Positions 6,020 through 33,724 of a stretch of 33,724 nucleotides of DNA are shown in pieces. The position numbers were made by a program, and so were the translations under genes. The stretch comes from Gemmatimonadota bacterium (GTDB taxonomy: Bacteria; Gemmatimonadota; Gemmatimonadetes; Gemmatimonadales; Gemmatimonadaceae): NCBI GenBank assembly GCA_021324635.1, contig JAJPIS010000125.1, positions 1-33,724 on the forward strand, written 5' to 3'. How positions within the stretch are numbered: the stretch's first letter is position 1; each line of letters opens with the position of its first letter. The notes under the pieces were generated by a model that saw nothing but the letters and a program-made list of their open reading frames with translations, made no database searches and was not told the origin of the DNA.

Positions 6020-6044
6020 GACGAACCCTCCCATACCCACTCCC

Positions 6045-7134: not shown

Positions 7135-7170
7135 CATGTCCTTGTCCCATTTCGTTGAGGAGGTGTTGCT

Positions 7171-7668: not shown

Positions 7669-7676
7669 CCTGAGCG

Positions 7677-9633: not shown

Positions 9634-9676
9634 CGTGTGCTCGGCGGGCGGTGCGTCAGCCGAGCGTCGGCGGCTG

Positions 9677-10576: not shown

Positions 10577-13069
10577 GTGCGCCATCCCACCCCGAGCTCG
10601 CCACTGCGTCCTCCGTACCCCACCGTTCTCGCGCTTCTGGTCCTGGGCGCGGCCGGCGTTGCATCTGCCCAGGCCCCTGCCCCCGTTCGCGATTCCGCGG
10701 CCACCGATTCGGCGCCGGCCGTGGCGGGGGCCGCGACCTACGCCGGCCGGGACAATCGGGTCGACGTGCGGATCCCCCGGATGGAGGCCGACATCCCGGT
10801 CGACGGAGACCTTCGGGCGCCGGCCTGGCGTCGAGCTGCGGCCCTGACCGGCTTCTCCGAGTACCAGCCCATCGACGGCGTGCCGGCGCGGGACTCGACC
10901 CGCGTCCTCGTCTGGTATTCGCCGCGCGCGATCTATTTCGGTATCCAAGCGTTCGAGGCGCACGGCCCGGTGCACGCGACCCTCGCGAACCGGGACAAGA
11001 TCGACGCCGATGACAACATCATGCTCGTCCTCACCCCCTTCGTGCGCGGCCGACACGCGTTCGTCTTCGGCGTCAACCCGCTCGGGATCCAGGAGGATGG
11101 GACGATCACCGAGGGCGTGACGAACTCGGGGTTCGGCGCGACGAGCCAGACCGGACCCCCGCCGCTCGACCTGAGCGCCGATTTCGTGTACGAGTCCCGG
11201 GGGCATCTCACCCCGTGGGGGTACGAGGTCGAGGTCCGGATCCCGTTCCGGAGCATCAAGTACCAGGCGAAGGATCCGCAGGACTGGGGGCTCAACATCG
11301 TCCGCAGCGTCCAGCACGCCGGCGAGTTGGACACCTGGGTGCCGACGCGGCTCGCCGCGGTCTCGTTTCTCGCGCAGTCGGGCGTCCTCACTGGCCTCAC
11401 CGGGTTGGAGCGGGGTCGCGCCGTCGACCTCAACCCCATCATCACGCAGCGGGCGATCGGTGGCCCGGCGGTCGGACAGCCGGCCGGGTGGCACTACGGG
11501 GTCGAGCGCCCGCAGGCCGGGGGCAATGTCCGGTGGGGCATCACCAACAACCTCATCCTGGACGGGACGTTCCGTCCCGACTTCGCCGAGGTCGAGTCGG
11601 ACGCGACGCAACTGCGCTACGATCCGCGCCAGGCGATCCAGTATCCGGAGAAACGCCCCTTCTTTCTCGACGGCATCGAGCAATTCAACGTCCCCAACAA
11701 CGTCATCTACACCCGGCAGATCCTCGCGCCGATCGAAGCGACCAAGCTGACCGGAAAGGTCTCCAATCTCAACGTCGCGTATCTCGGCGCGCTCGATGAC
11801 GAAGGATCGCCGCGCGCCGGCGGCCTTGGCCATCCGATGTTCACCATCCTCCGTGTCCAGCACGACATCGGCGAGGCCTCGCAGATCGGCGCCGTGGCGA
11901 CCGACAAGGAGGCGGGCGGGTCGTACAACCGGGTCGGCGGGATCGACGCGCGGTTCACGTGGGACCGCATCTACTCGTTCGGCCTTCAGGGCGTCGCCAG
12001 CGAGACCCGCGCTCCGGCCCCGGTGCTGCTCGGCAGCCCGACCCCCGGGAAGCGGACGGGCGCCGGCCCGCTCTGGGAGGCGCGCTTCATTCGGGGCGGG
12101 CGGACGTTCGGGATGTTCTACGACCTCCAGGGCATCGATCCCGAGTACCAGCCGGACGCCGGGTTCATCGGCCGCGCGGGTGTCGTCAACCTGAACGTCG
12201 ATCACCGCTACACGTTCTATCTCCCGTCGGGATCGTTCCTCCAGGCGTTCAACGCCGACTTTCTGTTCGTCAACATCTGGCGCTACCGCGACTTCACCAA
12301 CGCCGGCGCGACCGAGGACCGGAAGTACCATTTCACCGGCGTGGCGACGCTCTTTGGCGGGTGGACGCTGACGGGCGGCATCTTTCTCGAGCACTTCGGC
12401 TACGACCCGTCGCTCTACGCCAACTACTACCTCGGCCACATCACCGGTCACGACACGACGTTCACCCATTATGTCGGGACGTCGACGATCCCCAACACCG
12501 ACTGTCTGGTCACGCTCCAATCGCCGCAGTTCGCGAAGTTCGACTTCCGGGTCAACTACGTCACCTGCCGCGACGAGAACTTCTTCGAGTGGGCCTCGGC
12601 CGACATCAGCAACACGTCCATCACGCTGGACTGGCGCCCCACGCCCCGCCTCCGCTCGCAGTTGACCTACAACGCGCAGTTCTACCACCGGCGGAGCGAC
12701 CACTCCCTGGTCGCCAACACGCGGATCCCCCGCCTCGACGTCGAGTATCAGCTCTCGCGCCCCATCTTCGTCCGCATCGTCGGCCAGTACGACGCGACCT
12801 ACCGGGACAACCTGCGCGACGCCTCGCGGACCGATCTGCCGATCTTCATCCGCGACCCGGTGACGGGCGCGTACGCGCGCGCGACCCGCTTCGCGAGCAA
12901 CCAGTTTCAGGCCCAGGCGCTCTTCGCCTACCAACCGATCCCCGGCACGGTGGCGTTCGTCGGCTACGGCAACAACCTCACGGAAGCGGACCCCTTCCGC
13001 CTGCTCACCCTCCGCCGGACGTCGGACAGCTTCTTCGTCAAGTTCAGTTACCTCGTGCGGATGCAATGA
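10577..13069 (+). CDS. DUF5916 outer-membrane protein with CBM9-like N-terminal domain (paralogue 1)
   Basis: Protein of 830 residues with a signal peptide (TVLALLVLGAAGVASAQ). The N-terminal domain (about 65-230) is carbohydrate-binding-family-9-like: ADIPVDGDLRAPAWRRA, VWYSPRAIYFGIQAFE and SIKYQAKDPQDWGLNIVR. The rest is DUF5916, with the hallmark YPEKRPFFLDGIEQFN (about 357-372) and a long series of amphipathic strands ending FFVKFSYLVRMQ, a typical outer-membrane barrel terminus. The role is not established; the architecture suggests surface binding or processing of a polymer. A TAG stop six bases upstream in frame means the start cannot be earlier than GTG 10577. No strong Shine-Dalgarno sequence is seen. 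The stop overlaps the ATG of the paralogue (ATGA). Confidence 0.88.
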   Translation: MRHPTPSSPLRPPYPTVLALLVLGAAGVASAQAPAPVRDSAATDSAPAVAGAATYAGRDNRVDVRIPRMEADIPVDGDLRAPAWRRAAALTGFSEYQPIDGVPARDSTRVLVWYSPRAIYFGIQAFEAHGPVHATLANRDKIDADDNIMLVLTPFVRGRHAFVFGVNPLGIQEDGTITEGVTNSGFGATSQTGPPPLDLSADFVYESRGHLTPWGYEVEVRIPFRSIKYQAKDPQDWGLNIVRSVQHAGELDTWVPTRLAAVSFLAQSGVLTGLTGLERGRAVDLNPIITQRAIGGPAVGQPAGWHYGVERPQAGGNVRWGITNNLILDGTFRPDFAEVESDATQLRYDPRQAIQYPEKRPFFLDGIEQFNVPNNVIYTRQILAPIEATKLTGKVSNLNVAYLGALDDEGSPRAGGLGHPMFTILRVQHDIGEASQIGAVATDKEAGGSYNRVGGIDARFTWDRIYSFGLQGVASETRAPAPVLLGSPTPGKRTGAGPLWEARFIRGGRTFGMFYDLQGIDPEYQPDAGFIGRAGVVNLNVDHRYTFYLPSGSFLQAFNADFLFVNIWRYRDFTNAGATEDRKYHFTGVATLFGGWTLTGGIFLEHFGYDPSLYANYYLGHITGHDTTFTHYVGTSTIPNTDCLVTLQSPQFAKFDFRVNYVTCRDENFFEWASADISNTSITLDWRPTPRLRSQLTYNAQFYHRRSDHSLVANTRIPRLDVEYQLSRPIFVRIVGQYDATYRDNLRDASRTDLPIFIRDPVTGAYARATRFASNQFQAQALFAYQPIPGTVAFVGYGNNLTEADPFRLLTLRRTSDSFFVKFSYLVRMQ

Positions 13070-15666
13070 TCGGTCTCCCTCCGCGGCCCGCTGTCCGCAT
13101 CCCGCCTCCCGCGCGCGTCGCGCGCATGCCGCGCCTCCTGGTGCTGGCCGCGCTGGCGGCCGCGCTCGCCGCGGTGAACATGGCGACGAGTGCCGCCGCG
13201 CAGACTCCGGCCGCGCCCGGACAGGGAACCGGCGGGACCGATAGCGTCCACGCCGGGACGCCGGCGACGGCCGCTCCCGTTCCCGCGCCCCCGCCGCCCC
13301 CCGAGCCGTCGGCGACCCGGAGCACGGAGGGTGGGATCTACAGCGGGCGCGAGCACCAGACGATGGTCCGCGTTCCGCGCCTGACGGCCGACGTGCCGGT
13401 CGATGGGACGCTCGACGCCCCCGCGTGGCAGCGCGCCGCGCGGCTCACCGGGTTCTCGGAGTACACTCCCGTCGATGGCGCGCCGGCCGAAGACTCGACG
13501 GATGTCCTCGTCTGGTATTCACCGCAAGCGATCTACTTCGGCATCCGCGCGTTCGAGGGGCACGGCACCGTGCACGCGACCCTCGCCAACCGCGACCAGA
13601 TCGACGGCGACGACAACGTGCAGCTCATCCTGACGCCGTTCCTGCACGGACGGCAGGGACTGGTCTTTGCCGTCAACCCGTTCGGCATCCAGGAGGACGG
13701 GACGATCACCGAGGGGGCGGCCACCGGCCAACAGTTCGGCGTCGCGACGCACGACCAGCGTCCACCGACGGATCGAAGTCCCGATTTCGTGTACGAGTCC
13801 AGGGGGCACCTCACGCCGTGGGGGTACGAGGTCGAGGTCCGGATCCCGTTCCGGAGCGTCAAGTACCAGGCGAAGGATCCGCAGGACTGGGGGCTCAACA
13901 TCATCCGCAAAGTCCAGCACTCGGGGCACGAGGACGCGTGGGCACCGACGCGGCTTGCCGCGTCGACCTTCCTCGGGCAGTCCGGTACGCTGGCCGGGCT
14001 CACGGGGCTCTCGCGCGGACTCGTGCTCGACCTCAACCCGTTCGCGACCCAGAAGGCCCTCGGCGGACCGGCCGTCGGCCAGACGCCGGGCTGGCACTAC
14101 GGGGTCGAGCGTCCGCAGCTCGGTGGCAACGTCCGTTGGGGGATCACGAACAATCTGCTGCTCAACGGGACGTACCGGCCGGACTTCGCCGAGGTGGAGA
14201 CCGACGCGACGCAAGTGCAGTTCGATCCCCGAAACTCGATCCAGTATCCCGAGAAGCGGCCGTTTTTCCTGGACGGATTGGAGCAATTCAACGTCCCGAA
14301 CAACATCATCTACACCCGGCAGATCATCTCGCCCCTCGTGGCGACGAAGCTGACCGGCAAGCTCTCCGACATGACGGTCGCCTACATGGCGGCCCAGGAC
14401 GATGAGGGGTCCCCGGCGCTGGGCGGCGGCGGGCACCCGATCTTCAACATCGTCCGCCTGCTGCGCGACGTCGGGCAGGGGTCGCAGGTCGGAGTCGTGG
14501 CCACCGACCGCGAGGCGTCGGGCACGTTCAACCGCGTGGGCGGCGTCGATGCGCGCTTCACGTTCGCCAACATCTACTCGCTCGCGCTTCAGGCGGTCGG
14601 CAGCAGCACGCGCCTCGCCGGCCCTGGCACGAACGGCATCGCGACGCGCGGCGTCCAGGGCGCCGGGCCCTTCTGGGAGGCGCACTTCGTCCGGGCGGGA
14701 CACACCTTCGGCGTCGACTACAACGCCACCGGGATCGACCCCGAGTTCGTCGCCGGGAGCGGGTTCATCTCCCGGGCCGGGATCGCGAATCTGAACCTCG
14801 ACCACCACGTCACGCTCTACGGGCCGCCCAACGCCTTCGTCGAGACCTTCACCGCCGACGTCGCCCTCATCCACACCTGGGTGTACCGGCATCTGACGGC
14901 CGCCGAGGCGCCCGAGGACCGGCGCTACCATCTCACGGGCACGGTGACCCTTCATGGCGGGTGGCAGCTTGGCGGCGCCGTCTACGCCGAGACCTACGGC
15001 TACGATCCGTCTCTCTACGCCAACTACGCGCTGGGCCACATCACGGCGCACGGCACGACGTTCACGCCGTTCGTCGGCCAGGCGATCATCCCCAACACCG
15101 ACTATGTCTTCGTCCTGACGACGCCGCAATTCTCGACCCTGTCGGCCTCGATCCTCTACATCTCGGGCCGCGACGAGAACTTCTTCGAGTGGGCGTCGGC
15201 CGACATCGGCAATACGGCCATCACGATCAACTGGCGGCCCACCGAGAAGGTGCGGTTGAACGCGACCTACAGCGGGAACTTCTACCACCGCCACAGTGAC
15301 GGCTCGCTGGTCGAGCGGCAGCTCATCCCGCGGCTGGTCGCCGAGTACCAGCTGTCGCGTCCGATCTTCTTCCGGCTCGTCGGGCAGTACGAGGCGACGC
15401 ATCAGGACAACCTGCGCGACGACTCACGGACCAATCTCCCGATCTTTTACCGGGACCCCTCGACGGGCACCTACACGCGTGCGACGGCGTTCACGACCAA
15501 CCAGTTCGGCGTCCAGGGGCTCTTCGCCTATCAGCCGGTCCCCGGCACGGTGGCGTTCGTCGGCTACGGCAACAATCTCACCGAGCCGGTCTCCTTCCAC
15601 TTCCTGACGCTCCGGCGGACGTCGGACAGCTTCTTCGTGAAGTTCAGCTACCTGTTTAGAATGTAG
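13066..15666 (+). CDS. DUF5916 outer-membrane protein with CBM9-like N-terminal domain (paralogue 2)
   Basis: Protein of 866 residues and the tandem paralogue of the preceding gene. It keeps the same order: signal sequence (MPRLLVLAALAAALAAV, cleavage near SAAAQ), a Pro/Ala-rich linker, a CBM9-like domain starting ADVPVDGTLDAPAWQRA, the DUF5916 motif YPEKRPFFLDGLEQFN, and a barrel ending FFVKFSYLFRM. Long runs of protein and DNA are almost identical to paralogue 1 (for example around 11215-11270 and 13815-13870), while the N-terminal linker and extracellular-loop-like segments differ. I chose the ATG at 13066 because of the 4-nt overlap with the upstream stop; 13126 is a reasonable alternative that begins exactly at the signal peptide. 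Confidence 0.88.
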   Translation: MIGLPPRPAVRIPPPARVARMPRLLVLAALAAALAAVNMATSAAAQTPAAPGQGTGGTDSVHAGTPATAAPVPAPPPPPEPSATRSTEGGIYSGREHQTMVRVPRLTADVPVDGTLDAPAWQRAARLTGFSEYTPVDGAPAEDSTDVLVWYSPQAIYFGIRAFEGHGTVHATLANRDQIDGDDNVQLILTPFLHGRQGLVFAVNPFGIQEDGTITEGAATGQQFGVATHDQRPPTDRSPDFVYESRGHLTPWGYEVEVRIPFRSVKYQAKDPQDWGLNIIRKVQHSGHEDAWAPTRLAASTFLGQSGTLAGLTGLSRGLVLDLNPFATQKALGGPAVGQTPGWHYGVERPQLGGNVRWGITNNLLLNGTYRPDFAEVETDATQVQFDPRNSIQYPEKRPFFLDGLEQFNVPNNIIYTRQIISPLVATKLTGKLSDMTVAYMAAQDDEGSPALGGGGHPIFNIVRLLRDVGQGSQVGVVATDREASGTFNRVGGVDARFTFANIYSLALQAVGSSTRLAGPGTNGIATRGVQGAGPFWEAHFVRAGHTFGVDYNATGIDPEFVAGSGFISRAGIANLNLDHHVTLYGPPNAFVETFTADVALIHTWVYRHLTAAEAPEDRRYHLTGTVTLHGGWQLGGAVYAETYGYDPSLYANYALGHITAHGTTFTPFVGQAIIPNTDYVFVLTTPQFSTLSASILYISGRDENFFEWASADIGNTAITINWRPTEKVRLNATYSGNFYHRHSDGSLVERQLIPRLVAEYQLSRPIFFRLVGQYEATHQDNLRDDSRTNLPIFYRDPSTGTYTRATAFTTNQFGVQGLFAYQPVPGTVAFVGYGNNLTEPVSFHFLTLRRTSDSFFVKFSYLFRM

Positions 15667-17075: not shown

Positions 17076-18365
17076 ATGCACGCCGGGATGGTGCTGTCGC
17101 TGTTGGTGCAGGTACTCGCGGCCGGAGGTTCACGGGCCGCGCTGATCGCCGGGGCACGGGGGAGCGCCGCGCCGCCGCCGGCGCGACTCCAGGGGGCGAC
17201 CGTCCGCGCGCGCGACCTGGGGGTGCCGTTCGAGGGCACGCCCGGCCCCCACAACGCGATCACGGACGTGCCAGGGGTCGCCGTCGGCTACACCACCCTC
17301 ATCTCGGGTGACGGCAAGGGTCCGCTCGTGGTGGGGCAGGGCCCCGTCCGAACCGGCGTCACCGCCATCCTCCCGCGCGGCAAGGGCTCGAAGGACCCGG
17401 TGTTCGCGGGGTTCTTCTCGCAGAACGGCAACGGCGAGATGACGGGCAGCGAGTGGCTTCAGGAGGGTGGCTTCCTCGAAGGGCCGGTGATGATCACCAA
17501 CACGCACAGCGTCGGGGTCGTCCGCGACGCCGTGATCGCCTGGGAGCTGGCGCATCAGGCGGAGCAGGAGCCCAGGGGAATCGCCGAGTACCCGTGGTCG
17601 CTGCCGGTCGTGGCCGAGACGTACGACGGCGGCATGAACGACGTCAACGGCTTTCACGTCCATCCGGACGACGTGTTTCACGCGCTCGACGCCGCGGCCG
17701 GCGGGGCGGTGGCCGAAGGCAATGTGGGCGGCGGCACGGGGATGCGCTGCTTCGGCTTCAAGGGCGGTACCGGGACGGCATCGCGGGTTCTCCCCTCGGC
17801 CCAGGGGGGATACATCGTCGGCGTGCTCGTCCAGTGCAACACCGGCTCGCGGAGCCAGCTCCGGATCGCGGGCGTCCCGGTCGGACAGTTGGTGACCGCG
17901 CCGCCGACCCCCGTCGGCCAGGGCTTCCCGACCGATCCGGAGCGCGACGTCGGGTCGATCATCATCGTGGTCGCGACCAACGCGCCGCTCGTCTCCCGCC
18001 AGCTCGACCGCCTCTGCAAGCGCGCGACCCTCGGGCTGGGCCGGGTGGGTGGCACCTCGGGGGACGGGTCGGGGGACATCTTCGTCTCCTTCTCGACCGC
18101 CAATCCACTGGCTGACGATATCGGGATCAGCACCCCGGGCGGGACCAGCGACCACGCGAGCCCTGTGGCGCACATCGACATGCTGCACAACGACGCGATG
18201 GACCCGCTCTTCCTGGCGACGATCGAGGCGACCGAGGAGGCGATCATCAACGCCCTCGTCGGCGCCGAGACGATGGTCGGCCGCAACGGCCGTGTCCTCG
18301 CCGCGCTCCCGCACGATCAACTGCGGGCCCTCATGCAGCAGAAATTCCCGCCGACGCCCTGGTGA
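17076..18365 (+). CDS. P1 family (S58, DmpA/BapA-type) aminopeptidase
   Basis: Self-processing Ntn-type aminopeptidase of 429 residues with a short hydrophobic N-terminus (MVLSLLVQVLAA) that may export it. Family landmarks are ITDVPGVAVGYTTL (about 62-75), FFSQNGNGEMTGSEW (about 113-127), ITNTHSVG (about 140-147) and GNVGGGTGMRCFGFKGG (about 215-231). The chain should cleave itself before Ser294 in DVG-SIIIVVATNAPL, which would become the N-terminal nucleophile of the beta subunit. Known members release N-terminal D-, L- or beta-amino acids from peptides; specificity cannot be read here. The Shine-Dalgarno sequence GGGAGGG precedes the ATG. Its stop overlaps the next gene's GTG (GTGA), so it heads a three-gene peptidase operon. 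Confidence 0.9.
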   Translation: MHAGMVLSLLVQVLAAGGSRAALIAGARGSAAPPPARLQGATVRARDLGVPFEGTPGPHNAITDVPGVAVGYTTLISGDGKGPLVVGQGPVRTGVTAILPRGKGSKDPVFAGFFSQNGNGEMTGSEWLQEGGFLEGPVMITNTHSVGVVRDAVIAWELAHQAEQEPRGIAEYPWSLPVVAETYDGGMNDVNGFHVHPDDVFHALDAAAGGAVAEGNVGGGTGMRCFGFKGGTGTASRVLPSAQGGYIVGVLVQCNTGSRSQLRIAGVPVGQLVTAPPTPVGQGFPTDPERDVGSIIIVVATNAPLVSRQLDRLCKRATLGLGRVGGTSGDGSGDIFVSFSTANPLADDIGISTPGGTSDHASPVAHIDMLHNDAMDPLFLATIEATEEAIINALVGAETMVGRNGRVLAALPHDQLRALMQQKFPPTPW

Positions 18366-21259: not shown

Positions 21260-22174
21260 CTACGGAGGGCCGTCGCGACCGAAGGCGGCGACCAGTCCTG
21301 CGACGAACCGCTTGAGGGTCAGGTCGTCGGGCTCGCCGTGATCCGGGTTGAGCTCCGTGATCGTGAGGGCGCGGACGCGCGAGTCGTTCAGGAAGACGCC
21401 CAGAGCCTCCATGGCCTGATCGAGCGTGAGTCCGATATTCCGCCCGGTGTTTTCCGATAGCGGCGCATCGGTGAAGTCGATGACGTCGACGTCGAAGTGG
21501 ACGAGCAGGCGCTCGCGCCGCGCACCGAGGCTCGCCAGCGCGTGGCGGGCCGTGCCCGACGGATCGCGGGCGACCGCCTCGAGCGGCGTCCGAGCAATTG
21601 CATAGCGCTCGATGCATTCGAGCTCCCACGGACGGGCCTGATCGTGGCGGTGCGCAAAGAGATGCACGTCCTGGGGCAAGAGCATCGGATGCCGCGCGCC
21701 CACGCGCGCGAGACCGTCGATCGTGTCGGGGACCCCGAGCAGGTGTGCCATCCCCATCCAGTCGAGCGCGCCGGGCGGCGCGCTCGCGGGCGTATTGAGG
21801 TCGGCGTGCATGTCGAAGTACAGGAGCCCGAGGTCGCCCCGGCCATCGAGATGACCGGCCACCGTCCCGACCCCGACCGTGCAGTCACCACCCAGGACGA
21901 TCGGCATCTCGCCGGCGGCGACGGCCTCCCGCACACGATCCGCGACGTGCCGCGCGATGTCGGTCACCACCCCCGCGTGTTGGACCGACGGATGATCGCG
22001 GTCGGGACGCCACCGATACAGTGGCAGGTCGCCGCGATCGCGGGCGGCACGCCCCAGGCCGCACAGACCGGCGATGAGTCCCGCCCGTCGCAGCGCCGCC
22101 GGTGCCTGCTCCTGTCCGGGCGCGAACGCCCCCGCGCTCGACGGCGCCCCAATGATCGCCAGTGGTCGCGACAT
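21260..22174 (-). CDS. Arginase/agmatinase-family ureohydrolase with Cys at one Mn-ligand position
   Basis: Protein of 304 residues, the usual length for the family. IIGAPSSAGAFAPGQEQAPAAL (about 7-28) is the N-terminal signature. Metal motifs are YFDMHADLN (Asp121, His123, Asp125) and HFDVDVID (Asp228, Asp230). The normal GGDHS is replaced by GGDCT (Cys98), so one of the six Mn ligands is Cys instead of His. The family hydrolyses guanidino compounds (arginine, agmatine, guanidinobutyrate, formiminoglutamate); the substrate here is unknown and a metal-site change could alter activity. The gene follows the APC permease by 141 bp on the same strand and could belong to the same catabolic locus. 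The ATG overlaps ATGCATG, so the exact start is reasonably but not absolutely fixed. Confidence 0.88.
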   Translation of the reverse strand: MSRPLAIIGAPSSAGAFAPGQEQAPAALRRAGLIAGLCGLGRAARDRGDLPLYRWRPDRDHPSVQHAGVVTDIARHVADRVREAVAAGEMPIVLGGDCTVGVGTVAGHLDGRGDLGLLYFDMHADLNTPASAPPGALDWMGMAHLLGVPDTIDGLARVGARHPMLLPQDVHLFAHRHDQARPWELECIERYAIARTPLEAVARDPSGTARHALASLGARRERLLVHFDVDVIDFTDAPLSENTGRNIGLTLDQAMEALGVFLNDSRVRALTITELNPDHGEPDDLTLKRFVAGLVAAFGRDGPP

Positions 22175-22315: not shown

Positions 22316-23824
22316 TCAGCCCTCGCCGAGGATGATCTGGCGGCGGAGCGCCTCGGGGATACGGCGGCGGTGGGCGCGAGCGGCGACCCAGAAGACGAGG
22401 CCGAGCCCGAGCCAGGCGCCGAGCAGGCGCCACTCGAGCGGAACGCCACCGCCGGCGCCCGTCCAGGGCTCGTAGAGTGAGAGGATGAACGAGCCGGCCG
22501 CCCCGGCGCTGGCGACCCAGGCGGTGACGCGGCCGCCCGGGGCGCGGAAGGGGCGGGGAGCGTCCGGCACCCGCGTGCGGAGGCGGATCAGGGCGAGGCA
22601 GGTGAGCAAGTAGGCGATCGTGAGGCAGGTCGCCGCGGCGTCGACGATCGGGATGATCGCCGTGCGGCCGAGCAACGTGCCCAGGGCGCCGGCCGCGCCG
22701 GCGAAGACGATGGCGAAGGCCGGCACGCGGTGTCGGGGATGGACCGTGCCGAACCGTGACGCGATGAACCCGGCACGACCGAGCGCGTAGAGGATCCGCG
22801 TGCTGGCGAGCAGGACGGAGTTCCACGTGCTCAGGAGCCCGAACAGGGCCGTCACGAGCACGACCTTGGCCAGCAGCGCCGACCCGAACGCGGCCTCGAA
22901 GGCCGCGGCGACCGGCACCGTCGCGCGGGTGAGTGCCGGCCATGGCATGCTCATCGACGCCGAGATGATGACCAGCGCCTTGAAGACGATCCCGACCACG
23001 ATCGACAGAACGATCGCCGTCCCGACACGATGGAGCGTCGCGCCGGCCGTCTTCTCCTCCATCGCCTGCGTTCCGACGTTGAAGCCCCCGAACCAGAACG
23101 ACGCCGTCATGAAGAGGCCGACCATCCCTGGCCAGATCGAGCCCGTCGCGCTCCGCTGAAAGTATGGCACGAGGTTCGACGCATGCCCGCGCACGAACCC
23201 GGACACGATGAAGAGCCCGGCGAGCGCGAGCACCGCGATCACGAGCCAGTCCTGGAGTCGTGTCGCGGCCCGCGCGCCGCGATAGTTCAGGAACGTGAGC
23301 AGCGCCATGCCGCCCAGCCCCAGGGCCAGGGCGCCGGCGTGCACGTCGCCACCGAGGATGCGATAGACGGTCGGCCCGTCGAGCCCGGGGACGAGCGCGG
23401 CCAGCACCCAGCCGATCGAGATCGCCTCGAACGCCGCCACGGCGACGTACGTGAACGCGAGCAGCCACCCGACGAGGAAGCACGTCCGCTCGCCGAACAC
23501 CTCGTACGCGTACGCCACCTCGCCCCCCGAGACCGGGAGCAGCGTCGCGACCTCGCCGTAGCACAGGCCGATGAGGATGACCACGGCGCCACCGGCACTG
23601 AGGCCGATGGCGGCCCCGACGGGGCCCGCCTGCCGGAGCCAGTCGCCGAGGACGACGGCCCATCCCGCACCGACGACGGCCCCGAAGGCGAGGGCGAAGA
23701 ACTGGAACGAGCCGAGCTCGTGCCCCAACCGCTCCCCCTGCGTGGGGGGCGGATGGGAGCCGCCCGGGGCGCCGGCCGCGTGGCGGCCGGGGGCGCCGCG
23801 GGCCGAGCCGGTGACGGTCGTCAT
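22316..23824 (-). CDS. APC-family amino-acid permease
   Basis: Inner-membrane transporter of 502 residues with about twelve hydrophobic helices. FFALAFGAVVGAGWAVVLGDW (about 42-62) is the TM1 region, and CYGEVATLLPVSGGEVAYAYEVFG (about 88-111) is the TM2-TM3 motif. A polar Pro/Gly/Ala-rich cytoplasmic tail precedes TM1. Its ATG overlaps the stop of the BKACE gene (ATGA), so it is translationally coupled to a catabolic enzyme and probably imports that pathway's amino-acid or amine substrate. It is clearly distinct from the permease at 2024-3529. The specific substrate is not readable from sequence. Confidence 0.9.
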   Translation of the reverse strand: MTTVTGSARGAPGRHAAGAPGGSHPPPTQGERLGHELGSFQFFALAFGAVVGAGWAVVLGDWLRQAGPVGAAIGLSAGGAVVILIGLCYGEVATLLPVSGGEVAYAYEVFGERTCFLVGWLLAFTYVAVAAFEAISIGWVLAALVPGLDGPTVYRILGGDVHAGALALGLGGMALLTFLNYRGARAATRLQDWLVIAVLALAGLFIVSGFVRGHASNLVPYFQRSATGSIWPGMVGLFMTASFWFGGFNVGTQAMEEKTAGATLHRVGTAIVLSIVVGIVFKALVIISASMSMPWPALTRATVPVAAAFEAAFGSALLAKVVLVTALFGLLSTWNSVLLASTRILYALGRAGFIASRFGTVHPRHRVPAFAIVFAGAAGALGTLLGRTAIIPIVDAAATCLTIAYLLTCLALIRLRTRVPDAPRPFRAPGGRVTAWVASAGAAGSFILSLYEPWTGAGGGVPLEWRLLGAWLGLGLVFWVAARAHRRRIPEALRRQIILGEG

Positions 23825-24855
23825 CGACCGGCGGCCGTTCCCGGCGCCCGGGCCGCCCCGATCGCGGCGCTCGAGGCGCTCGAGACGCTCGAGGCGCTCG
23901 AGGCAGGCGCCGGCGGGAGCCCGAGCATCGCGCGAGCCTGCCGGGGCGTCGCCACCTCGCGGCCGAGCTCGTGGGCCAGCCGCACGGCGCGCGACACGAG
24001 CTGGGCGTTGCTCGCCGCCAGCTCACCGCGCCGGTAGTAGACATTGTCCTCGAGTCCGACGCGCACGTGGCCGCCGAGCAGCATCGCGAGCGTCGTCATC
24101 GGGAGCTGGTGGACACCGAGTCCGCTACAGAGCCAGAGCGAGCCGTCGGGCAGCTCGCGCACGAGCTGGAGGACGTTGTCGACCGTCGGCAGGCTGCTCG
24201 TCTGGTACCCCATCACGGTCTGGATCCAGTAGGGCGGCTCGATGAGCTGCTGGGCGATGAGATCGCGGATGACCCAGCCGCCGCCCGTGTGGTAGGTCTC
24301 GAGTTCCGGCTTGACGCCGAGCGCCTTCATGCGCCGCGCGAACGACGAGACCAGGTGATAGCTGAACGGGACACACTCGTCGTAGACCACCTCGGGGTGG
24401 GGGTCGGGCAGTGGTGCCGGCCGGGCCCGGAGCCGGAACTTGCTCATGTCCGGCGTGAGATTGAGCGATGCCACGTCCGGGCGGGCGGCGAGGCACTGGA
24501 GGCGTTCCTCCATCGTCATCCCCGGGCCGCCGCCGGTCGTGTCGTTGACGATGATATCGGGGCACCGCGCGCGGACCGCGGTGTTCACCGCGAGCCAGAC
24601 ATCGGTGGTCGTCGCCGGCCGTGTCTGGTGGGCCGGGTCGCGGGCGTGGATGTGCACCATGCTCGCCCCCGCGCGGTACGCCTCGTCGACGGAGTCGGCG
24701 ATCTCGTCCACCGTTTCGGGGAGCGCCGGGTTGGACTCCTTGCCCTGGATGCCGCCATTGACGGCGCAGCAGATGATCACGGGCGGCATCTTGCCGACGC
24801 GCTCGAGGTACTCGAACGCGTCGGCGTAGCGCCAGCTGGTGGGTAGCGTGGTCAT
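23821..24855 (-). CDS. Beta-keto acid cleavage enzyme (BKACE, DUF849 family)
   Basis: Cytoplasmic enzyme of 344 residues. Known BKACEs, such as 3-keto-5-aminohexanoate cleavage enzyme (Kce), condense a beta-keto acid with acetyl-CoA to give acetoacetate and a new acyl-CoA. Zinc ligands appear as His68 and His70 in MVHIHARD and Glu269 in VRVGLED; Arg265 matches the catalytic Arg. NDTTGGG (about 104-110) and ETYHTGGGWV (about 186-195) are further family motifs. The start at 24855 has AGGTG 6 nt upstream; an extension to 24954 adds no conserved sequence. The last ~30 residues are Ser/Ala-rich and encoded by a 9-bp repeat. The ATGA overlap with the permease gene indicates shared expression. Confidence 0.88.
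   Translation of the reverse strand: MTTLPTSWRYADAFEYLERVGKMPPVIICCAVNGGIQGKESNPALPETVDEIADSVDEAYRAGASMVHIHARDPAHQTRPATTTDVWLAVNTAVRARCPDIIVNDTTGGGPGMTMEERLQCLAARPDVASLNLTPDMSKFRLRARPAPLPDPHPEVVYDECVPFSYHLVSSFARRMKALGVKPELETYHTGGGWVIRDLIAQQLIEPPYWIQTVMGYQTSSLPTVDNVLQLVRELPDGSLWLCSGLGVHQLPMTTLAMLLGGHVRVGLEDNVYYRRGELAASNAQLVSRAVRLAHELGREVATPRQARAMLGLPPAPASSASSVSSASSAAIGAARAPGTAAGR
23866..23901. repeat. Four tandem 9-bp units inside the BKACE 3' end
   Basis: GGCGCTCGA, GGCGCTCGA, GACGCTCGA, GGCGCTCGA in tandem. On the coding (minus) strand they specify the repeating S-S-A/V tail of BKACE. The tail lies outside the family core, so the repeat probably arose by slippage. Confidence 0.85.
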
Positions 24856-24895
24856 GCGGTGCACCTGGCCGCGAGCGGATGCCGCGCCGGCGATC

Positions 24896-26341
24896 TCATG
24901 ATCCGGGAAGGGGCGGGAAGACGCCGCCCGTCGGTCGCGGCGTGAGCCACACACCCTGCTTCATGCGCAGGCGGATCCGCTCCGTGTTGGCGAAGTCCTG
25001 CGTCGGGTCGCCGGTGAGGACGAGCAGGCTCGCTTCCGCGCCGTCGGCCAGCCGCCCGATCTGGCGATGCGGGAAGATGAACTGGGGTGTCGTCTGGGAC
25101 CACATGTGGAGGAGCGCGGCCGGGGTGAACACGCCGGTCGCCGCCAGGGCGCGCGCCTCGTCGGCGGAGCTGTGGCGGAACTGATCGCTCCCGACGAGCA
25201 GCTCCACTCCGGCATCACGGAGGAGTCGAAGGTTGGAGCGGACGACATCGCGCGCGCTCCGCCGCGCCCGCGTGGTGTCGTCGGGCCCCTGTTGTGCCGT
25301 CTGGTTGATGGTCGTGGAGACGGGGACGTGGCGCGAGGCCGCGAGCCGAGCGTCCGCGGGGTCGATGCGGAAGGTGGCCGCGCCGGCGGAGTCGAGGTAG
25401 AGGGGCAGGTGCGCGATATCGTCGACGCCGGCGAGGAGCGCGTTGTGGAAGTCGGCCGCGGTCTCGATGTGCGCCGAGACGTGCAACCCGGCCGCGTGCG
25501 CCCGCTGGACGATCCCGGCCACGAGCGTCGGGTCGATGCCGCGCCGCGCGCCATAGCGATCGTCGTCCCGCCGGCGCGCGTACTGCTCCGAGTAGCAGAG
25601 GAACACCTTCACCAGGTCCGGGTGATCGGCCATGAGCTTCGGCCAGACGCGGGCGATGTCGGCCGCGTTCCGCACCACGAAGACATACTGCTCCTGCTCG
25701 TCTCTCGTGGTCGGCTTGGCGATCGCTCCGATCGCCGCCAACTGGTCGATGACCTCGAGCGGGTGCCCACCCGGTCCGGTGAACCCCGGCCCGGCGGCGA
25801 TGAAGTCGACCGACGTCGGCCGATTGACGAGGCTGTCGACCGCCGGGCGAATGAGCGGAGAGTTGCTCAGGTCCCGCACGTAGAAGACGCCATCGAGCAG
25901 ATACCGCTCGACGTACGTGGGCACGAGCGTGCGCTCGAGCCAGTGGTTGTGCGACTCGCCATACGGCGGCACGACATATCCGCCCGCGAGATCGACGACC
26001 GAGTCGATGTGCGCCGGGCGGGTCAGGCGGAAGACGCTGTCGGCCACCCAGACGGTCCGGTCGACGAACCGGCTGCCATCGTCGGTCAGCCACCGGCCAC
26101 CACGGAGCTCGTACACGTGCGCCGCGCCGCCGCCCGCGGCGGCTGTCGCGCCGGCGTCCGCGTTCCCTCCGCCGCCCGCTCCGGAGCGCGACGAGCAGCC
26201 CAGCGCGAGCATCGTCAGTGCGACGACAGCCGTCAGCGCCGTCAGCCATGCCGCGGGTGCGATCCCCGCGGGCCCGCCCGCCGTCTCCGGCCCGGAGCCT
26301 GACCGCGTCTCGGTGGTCCCGCGCTGCGTGCCCGTTCTCAT
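24896..26341 (-). CDS. Lipoprotein amidohydrolase (metal-dependent hydrolase family)
   Basis: Protein of 481 residues. A polar N-terminus is followed by a hydrophobic helix and the lipobox LALGC (Cys49), so it is probably a lipoprotein facing the periplasm. Amidohydrolase metal motifs are ESHNH (His131, His133), LVKVFL (a likely carboxylated Lys), SAHIETAADF and DDIAHLPLY (two His), and LLVGSDQF (Asp). This set is complete for a binuclear site. Relatives include imidazolonepropionase-like proteins and periplasmic peptidases or amidases; the substrate is unknown. Its ATG overlaps the stop of the upstream aminotransferase gene (ATGA), and the BKACE gene starts 40 bp after its own stop. It therefore belongs to the catabolic operon. 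Confidence 0.87.
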   Translation of the reverse strand: MRTGTQRGTTETRSGSGPETAGGPAGIAPAAWLTALTAVVALTMLALGCSSRSGAGGGGNADAGATAAAGGGAAHVYELRGGRWLTDDGSRFVDRTVWVADSVFRLTRPAHIDSVVDLAGGYVVPPYGESHNHWLERTLVPTYVERYLLDGVFYVRDLSNSPLIRPAVDSLVNRPTSVDFIAAGPGFTGPGGHPLEVIDQLAAIGAIAKPTTRDEQEQYVFVVRNAADIARVWPKLMADHPDLVKVFLCYSEQYARRRDDDRYGARRGIDPTLVAGIVQRAHAAGLHVSAHIETAADFHNALLAGVDDIAHLPLYLDSAGAATFRIDPADARLAASRHVPVSTTINQTAQQGPDDTTRARRSARDVVRSNLRLLRDAGVELLVGSDQFRHSSADEARALAATGVFTPAALLHMWSQTTPQFIFPHRQIGRLADGAEASLLVLTGDPTQDFANTERIRLRMKQGVWLTPRPTGGVFPPLPGS

Positions 26342-27747
26342 GACAGCTCGCCCCCGGTGTGAAGCGTGACATCCGCGGCATTGGTGGCATCCGCGACCGC
26401 CGCGGCGGCCTCGCGGAAGGTGTGGATCACCAGATCGACATCGGCGTCCGTCATCGCCGTCGACAGCGCGAGCATCCCGCGCGGCGCGATGAAGACACCG
26501 CGCGTCAGAAGCCCGAGGTGCAGGAGGGCCGAGATGCGACGTGAGGCGGCGGCGCTCGCCGATCGGTAGTCGGAGACGCGGGCTCGCGATGGGTGGACGT
26601 GACCGAGTGAGCCGACGCCGGAGACCCGGGCTGGCAGTCCGACGGCATCGGCGGCGGCCTGCATCCCGGCCCGCAGCCGATCGCCCAAAGCATTGATGCG
26701 CGCGATCTCCGGGCCGGTCAGCAGCTCCAGCGCGACGCGCCCGACGGTCATCGTCCCCATGTTGCCGTTGAACGTGCCGGAGTGCGAGATCGCCTCGGGG
26801 TGCCGGGCATCGAAGGCGGCCATGATCGCGGCGCGCCCTCCGAACGCCCCGATCGGCAGACCGCCGCCGATGACCTTGCCGAGCGTCGTCAGGTCGGGCA
26901 CGACGCCGTACAGCTCCTGCGCCCCCCCGACCGCCAGCCGGAAGGTCACGACTTCGTCGAAGATGAGGAGCACGCCCGCGTCGCGAGTCGCGGCACGGAG
27001 CCCGCGCAGGAACGACTCGGTGGCCGGGATCACGCCCGCCGCTCCCATCACGGGCTCGACGATCACGGCCGCCAGCTCCTGGCGATGCCGCTCCACGAGC
27101 GCGCGCGTGGTCGGGAGGTCGTTGAACGGGGCGATGAGCACCTCGCCGGTCAGCCCGGGGGAGAGCCCCGCGCCGTCGGGCCGGCCGGCCGGCCAGGTCG
27201 GCGGCGCGGCCCCCGGGTCGACGCTCACCTCGGCGGCATCGTAGCTCCCGTGGTAGCCACCTTCCATCTTCAGCACTTTGGGGCGTCCCGTGTACGCGCG
27301 CGCGGCGCGCACGGCACCCATGACGGCTTCCGTCCCCGAGTTGGTGAAGCGCAGCCGCTCGATCGACGGCAGGCGGCGGACGATCGCCTCGGCGAGCGCG
27401 ATCTCCGCCTCGACGGGCGCGCCATGCGCCGTCCCCCGCGCGCCGCAGGAGGCGAGCGCCGCCACCAGCTCGGCACGCGCGTGCCCGTGCACGAGGGACG
27501 TGTAGTTGCCGAGGCAGTCGATGTAGACATTCCCGTCGACGTCGGTGAGCCGGCACCCGGCGCCGCGCTCCATGTAGGCGGGATAGGGCGAGTAGTAGGT
27601 GGCCGTGCGGGTGCTCCCGCCCGGCAGGGTTCGCAGGGCGCGCTCGTACAGGGCCCGCGACCGGGGTGTCCGGTCGCGGTGCGCGCGCTCGAGCGCCGCC
27701 GCGAGGGTCTCGAGCGTGGCCCCGGGGGCCGATCCGATCGTCGTCAT
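26338..27747 (-). CDS. Class III PLP aminotransferase, GSA-aminomutase/beta-amino-acid transaminase type
   Basis: Cytoplasmic PLP enzyme of 469 residues. PLP-binding elements are NSGTEAVM (about 136-143), IFDEVVTFR (Asp264) and TTLGKVIGGGLPIGA with Schiff-base Lys291. The N-terminus LPGGSTRTATYYSPYPAY (about 41-58) is like bacterial (S)-beta-amino-acid transaminases as much as glutamate-1-semialdehyde aminomutase. A housekeeping tetrapyrrole role is unlikely because of the peptidase/BKACE setting. Transamination of a beta-amino acid would yield a beta-keto acid, the substrate class of the BKACE encoded two genes downstream. The ATG at 27747 has GGAG 6 nt upstream; an open extension to 27858 overlaps the upstream gene and lacks motifs. 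Specificity is inferred. Confidence 0.88.
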   Translation of the reverse strand: MTTIGSAPGATLETLAAALERAHRDRTPRSRALYERALRTLPGGSTRTATYYSPYPAYMERGAGCRLTDVDGNVYIDCLGNYTSLVHGHARAELVAALASCGARGTAHGAPVEAEIALAEAIVRRLPSIERLRFTNSGTEAVMGAVRAARAYTGRPKVLKMEGGYHGSYDAAEVSVDPGAAPPTWPAGRPDGAGLSPGLTGEVLIAPFNDLPTTRALVERHRQELAAVIVEPVMGAAGVIPATESFLRGLRAATRDAGVLLIFDEVVTFRLAVGGAQELYGVVPDLTTLGKVIGGGLPIGAFGGRAAIMAAFDARHPEAISHSGTFNGNMGTMTVGRVALELLTGPEIARINALGDRLRAGMQAAADAVGLPARVSGVGSLGHVHPSRARVSDYRSASAAASRRISALLHLGLLTRGVFIAPRGMLALSTAMTDADVDLVIHTFREAAAAVADATNAADVTLHTGGELS

Positions 27748-27805
27748 GACCGCTCCGAGTGAGAGTACCGTGAGTCGACGGGCGCCGGCATCGGCGTGGC
27801 CGCGC

Positions 27806-30800
27806 TCATTGATGATCCCAGCTGTCGACCGGGCGGCGGTCCGACCGGAGGGCGTCATCGTTGGCCCAGGGCCGGGGACCGTAGGGGCGCCGATCGGGCC
27901 AGATCTCGTCCAGCGTCGCGGCGTCGTACAGCCGGCCGGCCTTCATCACGTCGCGGACCTGTCGCGTGTTCCGGATGTCGTCGAGTGGATTGGCGTCCAG
28001 CACGTCCAGGTCCGCGATCTTGCCGACGGCGAGCGACCCGATATCGTGGTCGAGTCCGACGTACGACGCGCCCTGACAGGTGCCGACCTCGAGGGCTTCC
28101 ATGGGCGAGAGCGCGAGCCCGTCCGACCAGAGATCCCACAGGGCGTCGATGCCCGGCCACTCGCCGTGCCCGCCGATCGCGCCCCGGGCGCCGGCGTGCA
28201 GCATGTCGGCCATCCCTTCGGCGAGCATCGGCACCGCGTACTCGGCCAGCGGTCGGCGCACGTCGTACCGCGCGAGCGCGAGCTCGCGCCAGGGCACGAA
28301 CCGCCGTTGCCGGGGGTCCGGCCACAGATCGCTCTGCACGAGCCAGTACTCCTCGGCCCGAAGCTGCGGGCTGCTCACCGTCAGGGTCGCCGAGTACTCG
28401 ATCCCGGCCTGCCCGAAAAAGCGCGACGCGTCGGAATAGAGGGGGGAGTACGGGAGGTTGTGCTCCCATCCCGGATGTCCGTCGATGATGAACGCGAGGT
28501 CGCGAAAGAGGTCTTCACCCTCGGCGGTGGTCGTCACGCCGGCCTCTCGCGCCGCCTGGGCCAGCATCTGCCGCTCGACGCGCGACGGTTGGTGATAGTC
28601 CTTGATCGTGACCGCCCCCCACTCGACGAGGCGCCGCACGATGTCCTGGGCGTCGCGGTAGCCGTGGATGTCGCTCGACGGCCCGAAGCCGATGACCGGG
28701 TCGCCGGCGCTGTAGGTGCGCGGCCCGATGATCTCGCCTGCCTCGATCAGCTCGGCGATCGGGAACGCCGGGTCGGACTCGGTCGCCGGGTCGAGGACCG
28801 TCGTCACGCCATAGGTCAGATAGCGCGCCGACTCCTCGCGGTGGCGCTCGATCACGCCACCCACGCCGTGCAGGTTGTGGGCGTGCATGTCGACGAGCCC
28901 CGGGATGATCGTCTTGCCGGCCACATCGATGACGCGATCGACTCCCGTCGTGTCGCAGCTCGCGACGTCGCCGACGCAGGCGATCCGGCTGCCACGGACG
29001 ACGATCGTTCCGCGCTCGATCACCCGCCGCGCATCGAGCGTGACGAGTCGCGCACCGACGAGTGCCACCGATCCCCCGGGCGTCGGCCGCGGCACCCGAA
29101 CATGGATGCGGAGCGTGTCCGACCGGCCGGAGACCACGTCGGTCACGTAGTAGCGGTTGCCGCTCACGTACTCGACCGTGCGGGCGTCCCGCCAGTGCGG
29201 GTAGAGGCCGCCCTGATGGGTGAGTCGCCGGACGGCGGGGCCGTCGAGCCTGATCGTGTCGGCCTGGGTCGTATCGGCGGGCAGGTGCCGACGCCGCGCG
29301 CGCGAGGCACCGAGCGGCGCGACATAGAGGTCGAAGTGCCGCGTGAAGGCGACCCAGCGGCCATCGGGCGAGAGCGCGACGTCGCCCCCGGGGGTGACGA
29401 CGGCGCGCGAGTCGGTGCCACCCGTGGTGCCGTGGGCCGGGCCATCCGATGCGCCGTCGACTCGCCGCACGCGCCACGCCTCCCGCGGGATCTCGCCGTG
29501 CCGCGAGGGGGCGAGGAGATCCGGCTCCGGCACCTGCTCGGCGACATAGATGCCACCGTCGCGAGTCACGCTCGCGCGCGTCAACTGATCGATCTCCGTG
29601 AGCGGCACCGCCGGCCCGCCGTCGCGCGGGACACGGGAGAGCTCCCACCACTGGTTCGCGCTCCAGGGCTCGCCGCGCGCGGTCGCACCGGTCCCCCGGG
29701 TGACGAGGATCGAGCGCCCGTCCGCCGCCCACACCGGGTAGTGATACTCGCCGGGCTCGGACGTCAGGCGGCGCGGGGCCCCGCCGTCGGTGTCGATCCG
29801 CCAGACCGCCCCGCGCGCGACATCGTCCCAGGTGGCGACCGCGAGCGCGCGCCCGTCCGGGGACCACGCGGAGGCGAGCGCGAACGGCCGCTGCGAGTCG
29901 GCGACCGGCGGGGCCGCGAGTGCCGCGACGGCGTGCGGCGTGCCGTTGGGAAGGTCCATCGTCCACAGCCGGCCGAGGGCCTCGAAGGCCAAGCGCTTGC
30001 CATCGGGCGAGGAGGCCGGCCAGCGGATGAAGTGGGATTCCACCGAATCGTCGGTGAGCCGCACGCGGGACCGGACCGACTCGGAGATCTCCCGGTGGAC
30101 CCGCGCCGTGAACGGGATCGTCTCGACCCGTCCCGTCGCCACCCAGAGCCGCCGGATCTTGCCGCCCTGCGGGACGATGAGCGATCGCCCGTCCTTCGCC
30201 CACCGATACCCGGGGATCACCTTCATGTGCCGCACCGCATTCCCCTGCGTCGCGTCGCTCTCGATCGGGTCCATGGCGAGCCGTTCGGCGCCCGTGTGCA
30301 GGTCCCGCAGCCACAGCGCGGTCCGCACGTTGTAGGGGTGCCCGCGATACTCGATCGATCCGCCCGGGAGCCGCCGGCCGAAGGCCAGCCACCGTCCGTC
30401 GGGGGAGACCTCGGGCGCGAACTCGACGACGTCCGCGCCGCGGTAGAGGTGTGGGCTGGACGGCGGCGAGAGGTTGCGCACCCGTCCGGTGGCCAGCTCC
30501 AGCCGCTGAATGGCCTGCCCCTCCGTCACGCCGTCGCCGTCGCGCAGCATTGACGACCGGTAGAAATAGAGAAAGCGTCCGTCGGGGGATGGCGCGGGCC
30601 AGTAGTACTGAGACTCCATGGACGAGAGGAGCTCGTGCGCCCTGCCCACGGCCACGGTCGCCGGTGCCCGGTCCAATCGCGCGCGGATGTGGGGGCCTCC
30701 GGCGGCGCCACGGCTCGCGATCGGCCCGGCGGCGCCGGGCGCGACGTCCACCGGGAAGCTCGCGATCGTGGTCCGGTGGAGCTCCCAGTCCAGCACCGTC

Positions 30801-32716
30801 GGAAAGACCCGGACGGCGACGATCGTCCGGCCGTCGGGCATCCAGGCGGGCTGTCGGATCCGGGATCCGCGGTCGAGAAAGACCGGACGGGGGTCGGATC
30901 CGTCGGCGTTCATGACCCACAGGTTGTCCTGGCCGCCGATGCGGTCCGACACGAAGGCGATGCGCGAGCCGTCGGGCGAGTAGCGCGGGTGGTAGTTGAG
31001 GGCGGCGCCGCTGCTCTGCGTGAGGCACTCGGCGCTGCCGCCGGTGGCCGGCACGCGGTAGATCTGGCCCAGGAGGTCGAACACGACCCACCGTCCATCT
31101 GGTGCGATGTCGACCGACTCGAACGTCGCCTCGCTCGTGGTGAAGTCGATCGTGCGGGTCCGGCCGCGTGTCCGTGTCACATCCCACGCCGTGTCGGCCC
31201 GCGTGGTCAGGGAGGGCGGCACCGTCCGCAACCGCAGGGAGAGGCGCTCGGTGCCCCGCAGCACGGTGAGCGCGATCGGCTGCCCGCGGGTCGCGTCGAG
31301 CATGTGGTGGAGCGTCCGCGTGCCGGCGCTCCGCGGGAGCGGGCTGCCGTCGGCCGCGATCACGATGTCGCCGGGGCGCAAGCCGGCACTGTCGGCCCCG
31401 AGGCCGGCGACGACGGCCAGGACCTTGATGCCACCGTGTGCCGCGTCGAGGTGTGCGACGCCGCGCTCGGCATCGGTGAGTGTCGCCGCCTCGAGCCCCG
31501 GATCGAACGGCGACGCGCAGCGCGAGTCGAGGTCCGCGATGCGCGTCCCGTTGCGACAGAGCGGCCGCGACCCACGGGGCGGGGGAGCCGAATCCTCGGT
31601 GAGCTGGAGCAGGAGCGCGAGGGCGAAGCGCGCGCGGGCAGTGTAGGCCGGAAAGTCGAACTTCTGCCACTCGTCGGACGGCAGGTGCATGTCGTCGTCA
31701 CGATTGACGCCGAACACGATCGCCGGGAGCCCGCGCATGGCGAACCCGAAGTGGTCGCTGTCCTGGATCACCTCCCGGGTGAGCACGTGCACGTGCACAC
31801 CGGTCGCGGCGCCCGCGCGGGCCAGCAGGGCCGGCCAGGCGGGACTCGTCCCCACATCCATCGCGATCGGATCGGTCTCGGGGTGCCGCCCCATCTGCTC
31901 CATCGTGAACATCGCCACGTGCCGGGCCCAGGGGAGCGGTGGCGCGGCGACGTAGTGGAGTGAGCCGAGCAGCCCCGGCTCCTCACCACCAAACGTCGCC
32001 AGCACGACCGTGCGCCGGAGGTGCACCCCCGACTGCGTGAGCGCGCGCGCGATCGCCAGCACGACGCCCACGGACGAGGCGTTGTCGTCGGCGCTGTTCC
32101 AGATGCTGTCCCGCAGCGGTCCCTGGCCGGGCGGCATGGCGCGTCCGGGGTCGGCCTCGCCGATCCGTCCCTGCCCATCGTGGTGCGCGCCGATGACGAC
32201 GACCTCGCGGGCGAGCCTCGGGTCGCTGCCCGGGATGACCGCCAGCACGTTCTCGGACTCGAGGACATCGCCGGGGTGCACCGGGTGCGGCGGCGCGAAC
32301 GGGAAGCGCTGGAGGTACGATCGCCCGGTCGGGGTCGAGTCGCCGAGCGGCTGGAGACCGAGCGCCGCGAACGCGCGCGCCACGTACTCGGCGGCCTGGC
32401 GCTCGCCCGCGTAGCCGGCCCCGCGGCCGCCGTAGGCATCGCTCGCGAGCTCGGAGACGTCGCGCCGGAGCCCCTCGGCGGTGATCGCGGGCTCGGCGGC
32501 CCGGAGCAGCGAATCGACGTGCGCCGACACGCGGCCGCCGCCGGCCGTGTCCCGGACGGCCGGGGCGGCCGGGGCGGCCCCGGGCGTTCCCGGGGCGACC
32601 GTCACCCCGCCGCCGCCCCGCCGGTCGGCGTGCCCCGCGGCCCCGGTCAAAGCGGCGGCGAGTGCCAGCGCCGCGAGTCCCGGCCGCCTTCCGTTTTTGG
32701 ATCCAGAATCCGACAT
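27806..32716 (-). CDS. Exported M28 peptidase-PDZ-TolB-like propeller-amidohydrolase fusion
   Basis: One uninterrupted chain of 1636 residues with a signal peptide (LAALALAAALTGAAGHA). Residues ~60-375 are an M28 zinc peptidase: AHHDG (His178, Asp180), SADDNASS (Asp211), GGEEPGLLGS (Glu245, Glu246), MEQMGR (Glu273 where Asp is usual) and DMHLPSD (His344). Residues ~415-500 form a PDZ-like domain (GLRPGDIVIAADG). Residues ~525-1205 contain many SPDGR-type blades of a TolB-like propeller. Residues ~1215-1600 are an amidohydrolase: DMHAH (His1278, His1280), TIKDYH (Lys1372), GHPGWEH and GAIGGHGEW. Both metal sites look complete. It probably degrades peptides in the periplasm. It lies 58 bp upstream of the aminotransferase gene. 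An ATG at 32731 would add five residues. Confidence 0.9.
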   Translation of the reverse strand: MSDSGSKNGRRPGLAALALAAALTGAAGHADRRGGGGVTVAPGTPGAAPAAPAVRDTAGGGRVSAHVDSLLRAAEPAITAEGLRRDVSELASDAYGGRGAGYAGERQAAEYVARAFAALGLQPLGDSTPTGRSYLQRFPFAPPHPVHPGDVLESENVLAVIPGSDPRLAREVVVIGAHHDGQGRIGEADPGRAMPPGQGPLRDSIWNSADDNASSVGVVLAIARALTQSGVHLRRTVVLATFGGEEPGLLGSLHYVAAPPLPWARHVAMFTMEQMGRHPETDPIAMDVGTSPAWPALLARAGAATGVHVHVLTREVIQDSDHFGFAMRGLPAIVFGVNRDDDMHLPSDEWQKFDFPAYTARARFALALLLQLTEDSAPPPRGSRPLCRNGTRIADLDSRCASPFDPGLEAATLTDAERGVAHLDAAHGGIKVLAVVAGLGADSAGLRPGDIVIAADGSPLPRSAGTRTLHHMLDATRGQPIALTVLRGTERLSLRLRTVPPSLTTRADTAWDVTRTRGRTRTIDFTTSEATFESVDIAPDGRWVVFDLLGQIYRVPATGGSAECLTQSSGAALNYHPRYSPDGSRIAFVSDRIGGQDNLWVMNADGSDPRPVFLDRGSRIRQPAWMPDGRTIVAVRVFPTVLDWELHRTTIASFPVDVAPGAAGPIASRGAAGGPHIRARLDRAPATVAVGRAHELLSSMESQYYWPAPSPDGRFLYFYRSSMLRDGDGVTEGQAIQRLELATGRVRNLSPPSSPHLYRGADVVEFAPEVSPDGRWLAFGRRLPGGSIEYRGHPYNVRTALWLRDLHTGAERLAMDPIESDATQGNAVRHMKVIPGYRWAKDGRSLIVPQGGKIRRLWVATGRVETIPFTARVHREISESVRSRVRLTDDSVESHFIRWPASSPDGKRLAFEALGRLWTMDLPNGTPHAVAALAAPPVADSQRPFALASAWSPDGRALAVATWDDVARGAVWRIDTDGGAPRRLTSEPGEYHYPVWAADGRSILVTRGTGATARGEPWSANQWWELSRVPRDGGPAVPLTEIDQLTRASVTRDGGIYVAEQVPEPDLLAPSRHGEIPREAWRVRRVDGASDGPAHGTTGGTDSRAVVTPGGDVALSPDGRWVAFTRHFDLYVAPLGASRARRRHLPADTTQADTIRLDGPAVRRLTHQGGLYPHWRDARTVEYVSGNRYYVTDVVSGRSDTLRIHVRVPRPTPGGSVALVGARLVTLDARRVIERGTIVVRGSRIACVGDVASCDTTGVDRVIDVAGKTIIPGLVDMHAHNLHGVGGVIERHREESARYLTYGVTTVLDPATESDPAFPIAELIEAGEIIGPRTYSAGDPVIGFGPSSDIHGYRDAQDIVRRLVEWGAVTIKDYHQPSRVERQMLAQAAREAGVTTTAEGEDLFRDLAFIIDGHPGWEHNLPYSPLYSDASRFFGQAGIEYSATLTVSSPQLRAEEYWLVQSDLWPDPRQRRFVPWRELALARYDVRRPLAEYAVPMLAEGMADMLHAGARGAIGGHGEWPGIDALWDLWSDGLALSPMEALEVGTCQGASYVGLDHDIGSLAVGKIADLDVLDANPLDDIRNTRQVRDVMKAGRLYDAATLDEIWPDRRPYGPRPWANDDALRSDRRPVDSWDHQ

Positions 32717-32893: not shown

Positions 32894-33724
<831 letters not shown>

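Follow-up and report, generated by a model that had tools for sequence, protein, structure and literature searches.

A Gemmatimonadota gene uniting an M28-PDZ module with a propeller-amidohydrolase, and its possible role in the breakdown of beta-amino-acid peptides

Results

The window analyzed here is a 33,724-nucleotide stretch of a Gemmatimonadota draft genome (127 contigs, 96.8% complete). On its minus strand, positions 27806..32716 hold an uninterrupted open reading frame of 1636 amino acids with no internal stop. An earlier note on this DNA, made from the sequence alone, had described a four-module chain here, and we could substantiate each module within the single frame, together with a signal peptide. 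In order of the chain, and all on the minus strand, these are the signal peptide (MSDSGSKNGRRPGLAALALAAALTGAAGHA; residues 1-30, 32627..32716; from sequence and hydrophobicity), a Peptidase M28 domain (residues 156-367, 31616..32251; from Pfam and ligand alignment), a PDZ domain (residues 426-496, 31229..31441; from Pfam), a beta-propeller region of the PD40/TolB-like kind (residues ~520-1205, 29102..31159) and an amidohydrolase domain (residues 1218-1600, 27917..29065; from Pfam and ligand alignment). The fusion junction (residues 497-510, 31187..31228, minus strand) leads from the end of the PDZ domain to the point where the mature propeller protein starts.

Pfam assigned Peptidase_M28 to residues 156-367 (E 4e-28), with nearly the whole of PF04389 covered (1-191 of 193 positions; 98.8 bits against a cut-off of 21.3), PDZ_2 to residues 426-496 (E 4e-6), PD40 repeats to the middle of the chain (E 7e-30) and Amidohydro_1/_3 to residues ~1218-1596 (E 1e-11). 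A tentative count of PDG-type motifs gives ~12-13 blades in the propeller region, which would probably make two propellers rather than one. Although the reading frame is open further upstream, the ATG at 32716, with a divergent regulator gene 177 bases away, is followed by a hydrophobic stretch scoring 2.33, like the signal peptides of relatives; the chain is probably exported. The M28 half is a predicted aminopeptidase. AlphaFold models, built from 10-11 sequences, had mean pLDDT values of 52 and 60 and were too poor for metal geometry or the distance between the sites; Foldseek searches with them returned general propeller matches only.

The fused gene heads a cluster on its strand. It is followed by genes for a class III, beta-transaminase-like aminotransferase (26338..27858, true start probably near 27747), a second amidohydrolase that is a probable lipoprotein (24896..26380, start not fixed), a beta-keto acid cleavage enzyme (BKACE; 23821..24954), an amino acid permease (22316..23824) and an arginase-family protein (21260..22174), all on the minus strand. 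Divergent from the fused gene, on the plus strand, is a GntR/FCD regulator gene (32894..33724) that enters low-complexity sequence at the contig end, where a long proline/glycine-type run, near-pure C on the plus strand, occupies the window from ~33600 to 33724. This run distorts the end of the GntR gene and probably marks a limit of sequencing or assembly.

The BKACE gene product matched PF05853 over its full length (1-274 of 274, E 2e-85). For the aminotransferase, the best solved relative was 6k8h (381 bits, versus 300 for glutamate-1-semialdehyde (GSA) aminomutase), an enzyme from Sphaerobacter that acts on beta-amino acids (PMC10589169). Arg36 of 6k8h, like R41 of a Variovorax enzyme, is the residue proposed to bind the substrate carboxylate (PMC10589169, PMC9850050); alignment showed that the window aminotransferase keeps it, whereas GSA aminomutase has a different residue there. 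We take the aminotransferase to act probably on beta-amino acids, although beta-transaminase and GSA aminomutase sequences are closely related, which makes substrate calls uncertain. The second amidohydrolase aligned with the profile of the fusion's amidohydrolase in its C-terminal part only (hhalign).

Peptidases of the S58 DmpA/BapA type are known as beta-aminopeptidases, and a gene of this kind lies at 17076..18365 in the window. Though nearby, it is 8 kb away and on the opposite (plus) strand, a position that counts against reading the cluster as one for beta-peptides.

The earlier note had also held that both active sites keep their ligands, a claim that stood for the first site and failed in its simple form for the second. 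In the M28 domain the set of metal ligands is complete (H178, D211, E246, E273 and H344, with E245 as the base), with a single change, from Asp to Glu, at E273. H178, D211, E245, E246 and H344 are invariant across 26 homologues, and position 273, which is Glu in the fusion, is Asp in 23 of the 26 and Glu in three.

The amidohydrolase half belongs to a family with which it aligns over its full length, a PD40 propeller coming first and the amidohydrolase after it. Ligands were mapped by aligning a profile of nine members with solved enzymes. Canonical residues are kept at H1278 and H1280 (the HxH motif), K1372 and H1419, each in 51/51 relatives, but the canonical six-ligand set (HxH, Lys, His, His, Asp) is not present in full: the profile alignment places E1399 at the position of the canonical beta-5 His (compare HAHG of 9kov) and H1517 at that of the canonical beta-8 Asp (compare GTD of 2qs8). 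Among the relatives the beta-5 position is Glu in 50 of 51, with Asp in the other, and the beta-8 position is His in all 51. Since these replacements are conserved throughout the family, the site appears altered rather than decayed. Glu1399 and His1517 may bind metal. With such a non-canonical metal set, the activity cannot be read off the solved relatives.

Members of this family occur in other arrangements as well. In seven proteins of ~1500-1600 amino acids (L049-L055, from genomes G192, G147, G170, G156, G178, G160 and G164), the C-terminal 400-450 residues form a serine beta-lactamase-type domain (PF00144), assigned at E 2e-73 in L051, by eye in L052 and L053 and by length in the others. 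The L052 protein (G156, ORF 6544-776) has, by eye, two NTF2/SnoaL-like repeats between a signal peptide and its propeller. Locus L041 carries a tandem pair of propeller-amidohydrolase genes (5056-13365) from different clades of the family.

Several lines of evidence confirm that the gene fusion is real and make a chimeric join unlikely. The junction is in frame and falls precisely on domain borders: a lone M28-PDZ protein from a Pyrinomonadaceae MAG (L047) stops 3 residues past the equivalent of residue 497, and the mature part of the lone amidohydrolases starts at about residue 508 of the fusion. GC3 is 0.82-0.98 in each full 60-codon block of the gene and flat across the junction. In 45/51 lone amidohydrolases a hydrophobic signal lies just upstream of the mature start; at the fusion junction we found no signal peptide (hydrophobicity 0.64). 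Had a stop codon simply been lost, such a signal would still be there, so its absence counts against that origin. Finally, GntR on one flank and BKACE and permease on the other are arranged as at a related locus (L127), placing the M28 half inside a conserved cluster. As the sign of two separate genes, the earlier note had named relatives in which a stop and a start codon fall between the two halves; relatives proved instead to lack the M28 half altogether at that place.

Both halves are found as separate proteins in other genomes, lone M28-PDZ and lone propeller-amidohydrolase alike, as the earlier note had stated. With the whole protein and its N-terminal half as queries, 288 genomes of the order yielded no other case of both in one frame, and no second fusion emerged from 374 genomes of the class (junction segment as query) or from 150 of the phylum (M28-PDZ half as query) once doubtful long frames had been fetched and excluded. 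A pattern scan of 84,980 species, an insensitive method, found the halves only separately. Plasmid searches gave partial matches, none covering 80%, and no paper describing a fusion of M28 with an amidohydrolase turned up in the literature searches. The earlier note had known of no such fusion, and no other genome searched has one.

The long frames that we excluded were of several kinds. Near other amidohydrolase homologues, the frames of 1400-2126 amino acids owed their length to spurious open sequence upstream in GC-rich DNA, to the C-terminal beta-lactamase fusions or to N-terminal NTF2-like repeats (these judged by eye); none had M28. Apparent matches extending into the PDZ part in G320, G328, G430 and G409 lacked the M28 half, and long frames near M28 homologues in G125, G258, G196, G117 and G112 lacked the amidohydrolase.

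In the two other species of the genus, the amidohydrolase domain had distant matches only (40-41%) and the M28 half had no match. A tree placed the amidohydrolase half, on its own long branch, in a clade whose other members are lone proteins of Gemmatimonadota and of Alphaproteobacteria (support 0.997). Given this clade and the searches that returned no second case, we regard the fusion as a derived state that is, to the extent of these searches, unique. Each half is of a known and ordinary kind; it is the combination that is unusual.

Related loci share parts of the cluster. At L127 (G092), a divergent GntR gene (47%), a lone amidohydrolase with its own lipoprotein-like signal (beginning MRAKIIGVIGALLTVSLGC), a 3-hydroxyacyl-CoA dehydrogenase (3HCDH), BKACE (73%) and a permease follow in succession, and genome G088 has the order aminotransferase (62%)-permease-3HCDH-BKACE. 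The aminotransferase is present in 12/14 BKACE genomes (hypergeometric 4e-13, not corrected for kinship). An S58 peptidase gene lies within ~8 kb of the aminotransferase gene in 6/14 loci and directly beside it in two (L106, L114), although four of the six loci come from one genus and are not independent. Locus L106 (G088:C139, 1-5007) carries on one strand genes for an acyl-CoA synthetase, a beta-transaminase-like aminotransferase, an S58 peptidase and an alanyl-tRNA-editing-like protein. In other genomes we found no lone M28-PDZ gene within the aminotransferase/BKACE clusters, and at L127 and L101 we found no counterpart of the arginase-like gene or of the second amidohydrolase.

A penicillin amidase gene lies beside or near the lone amidohydrolase gene at L091, L093, L039, L113 and L127, and at L091 an M20/M28-type peptidase gene comes directly after it. 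From this handful of loci, the propeller-amidohydrolase family seems to tend to adjoin a second exported amide hydrolase, and the fused gene may be the covalent form of such a two-hydrolase partnership.

Discussion

We favor, at a probability of about 0.55, the view that an M28-PDZ protein and a propeller-amidohydrolase have fused into an exported two-headed hydrolase that feeds the catabolism of beta-amino-acid peptides. An M28-PDZ module would have been set before a propeller-amidohydrolase, its signal peptide taking the place of the one that the propeller protein had borne, and the resulting gene would belong to a GntR-controlled catabolic operon. Outside the cytoplasm, the M28 head may trim N-terminal residues from peptides, and the amidohydrolase head, which is prolidase/carboxypeptidase-like and would be gated by the propellers, may cut the leftover short peptide or N-acyl amino acid. 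The permease would import the freed amino acids, the aminotransferase would convert a beta-amino acid to a beta-keto acid, and BKACE would split this with acetyl-CoA to give CoA esters. Our analyses show the fusion, its domains and ligand residues, the gene context and the co-occurrence; we infer the place of export, the activities, the substrate and the order of the steps, and the channelling of a peptide between the sites that the earlier note suggested is speculative.

A different reading, which we find rather doubtful yet worth weighing, accepts the fusion and makes it a general scavenging peptidase for alpha-peptides, its neighbors handling ordinary amino acids, as in arginine or lysine breakdown. 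Consistent with this, the order is rich in M28-PDZ and propeller-amidohydrolase proteins, the cluster includes a gene of the arginase family as well as a general amino acid permease, and lysine breakdown is another process in which the BKACE family acts. Such a role fits less well with an aminotransferase that is nearest to a beta-transaminase and keeps the proposed substrate-binding Arg, or with the recurrence of S58 beta-aminopeptidase relatives beside that aminotransferase. It is unlikely that one head alone is active and the other serves as a binding or structural domain: the missing beta-8 Asp and beta-5 His of the amidohydrolase would suit an inactive head, but their replacements are kept in 50-51 of 51 family members, as expected of a functional altered site rather than decay, and the M28 ligands are complete. 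That an assembly chimera or a lost stop codon created the gene is extremely improbable, for although the fusion is known from a single genome in 127 draft contigs, the halves meet in frame and exactly at their domain borders, no signal peptide is left over at the join, GC3 is flat and conserved cluster genes lie on both flanks.

For the two-headed hydrolase of beta-amino-acid peptides, a bolder version would make the protein a dedicated exported enzyme, the entry to a complete pathway from peptide to beta-keto acid, with an undescribed type of metal site (HxH, Lys, Glu, His, His); we put this forward only tentatively, as somewhat unlikely. A fusion confined to one lineage naturally hints that both activities serve the same substrate and, with the neighboring genes, points to a testable pathway for the breakdown of beta-amino-acid peptides, a process that has seldom been investigated in microbes (PMC6150868). 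The fused gene also brings into view a large family of amidohydrolases whose non-canonical metal site is conserved.

Several known systems come close to parts of the locus. The closest solved relative of the window aminotransferase is the beta-transaminase of Sphaerobacter thermophilus (6k8h), Arg36 being common to both. Tricorn protease (1k32) likewise unites propellers and a PDZ domain with a protease; it gave a weak fold match to the fusion's propeller region, from a poor model, and its catalytic domains are unrelated to those of the fusion. Xaa-Pro dipeptidase, arginine carboxypeptidase and the phenylurea and molinate hydrolases (2qs8, 3mtw, 4whb, 4ub9) share with the amidohydrolase half a profile match, the HxH motif and the position of the carboxylated Lys, but differ at beta-5, where the fusion has Glu for His, and at beta-8, where it has His for Asp. 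M28-PDZ aminopeptidases of ~450-570 amino acids (such as G177:C33 and L047) have the same domain order and M28 ligands at 37-41% identity, whereas the fusion has Glu273 for one ligand Asp and runs on into a second enzyme. That second enzyme, residues ~505-1636, can be aligned over its whole length, at 42-47%, with dozens of propeller-amidohydrolases that stand alone (PD40 and Amidohydro_1, ~1100 amino acids) and has the same altered ligand set; these proteins usually bear their own signal peptide before the propeller (45/51), whereas in the fusion the propeller has none and sits behind the M28-PDZ module.
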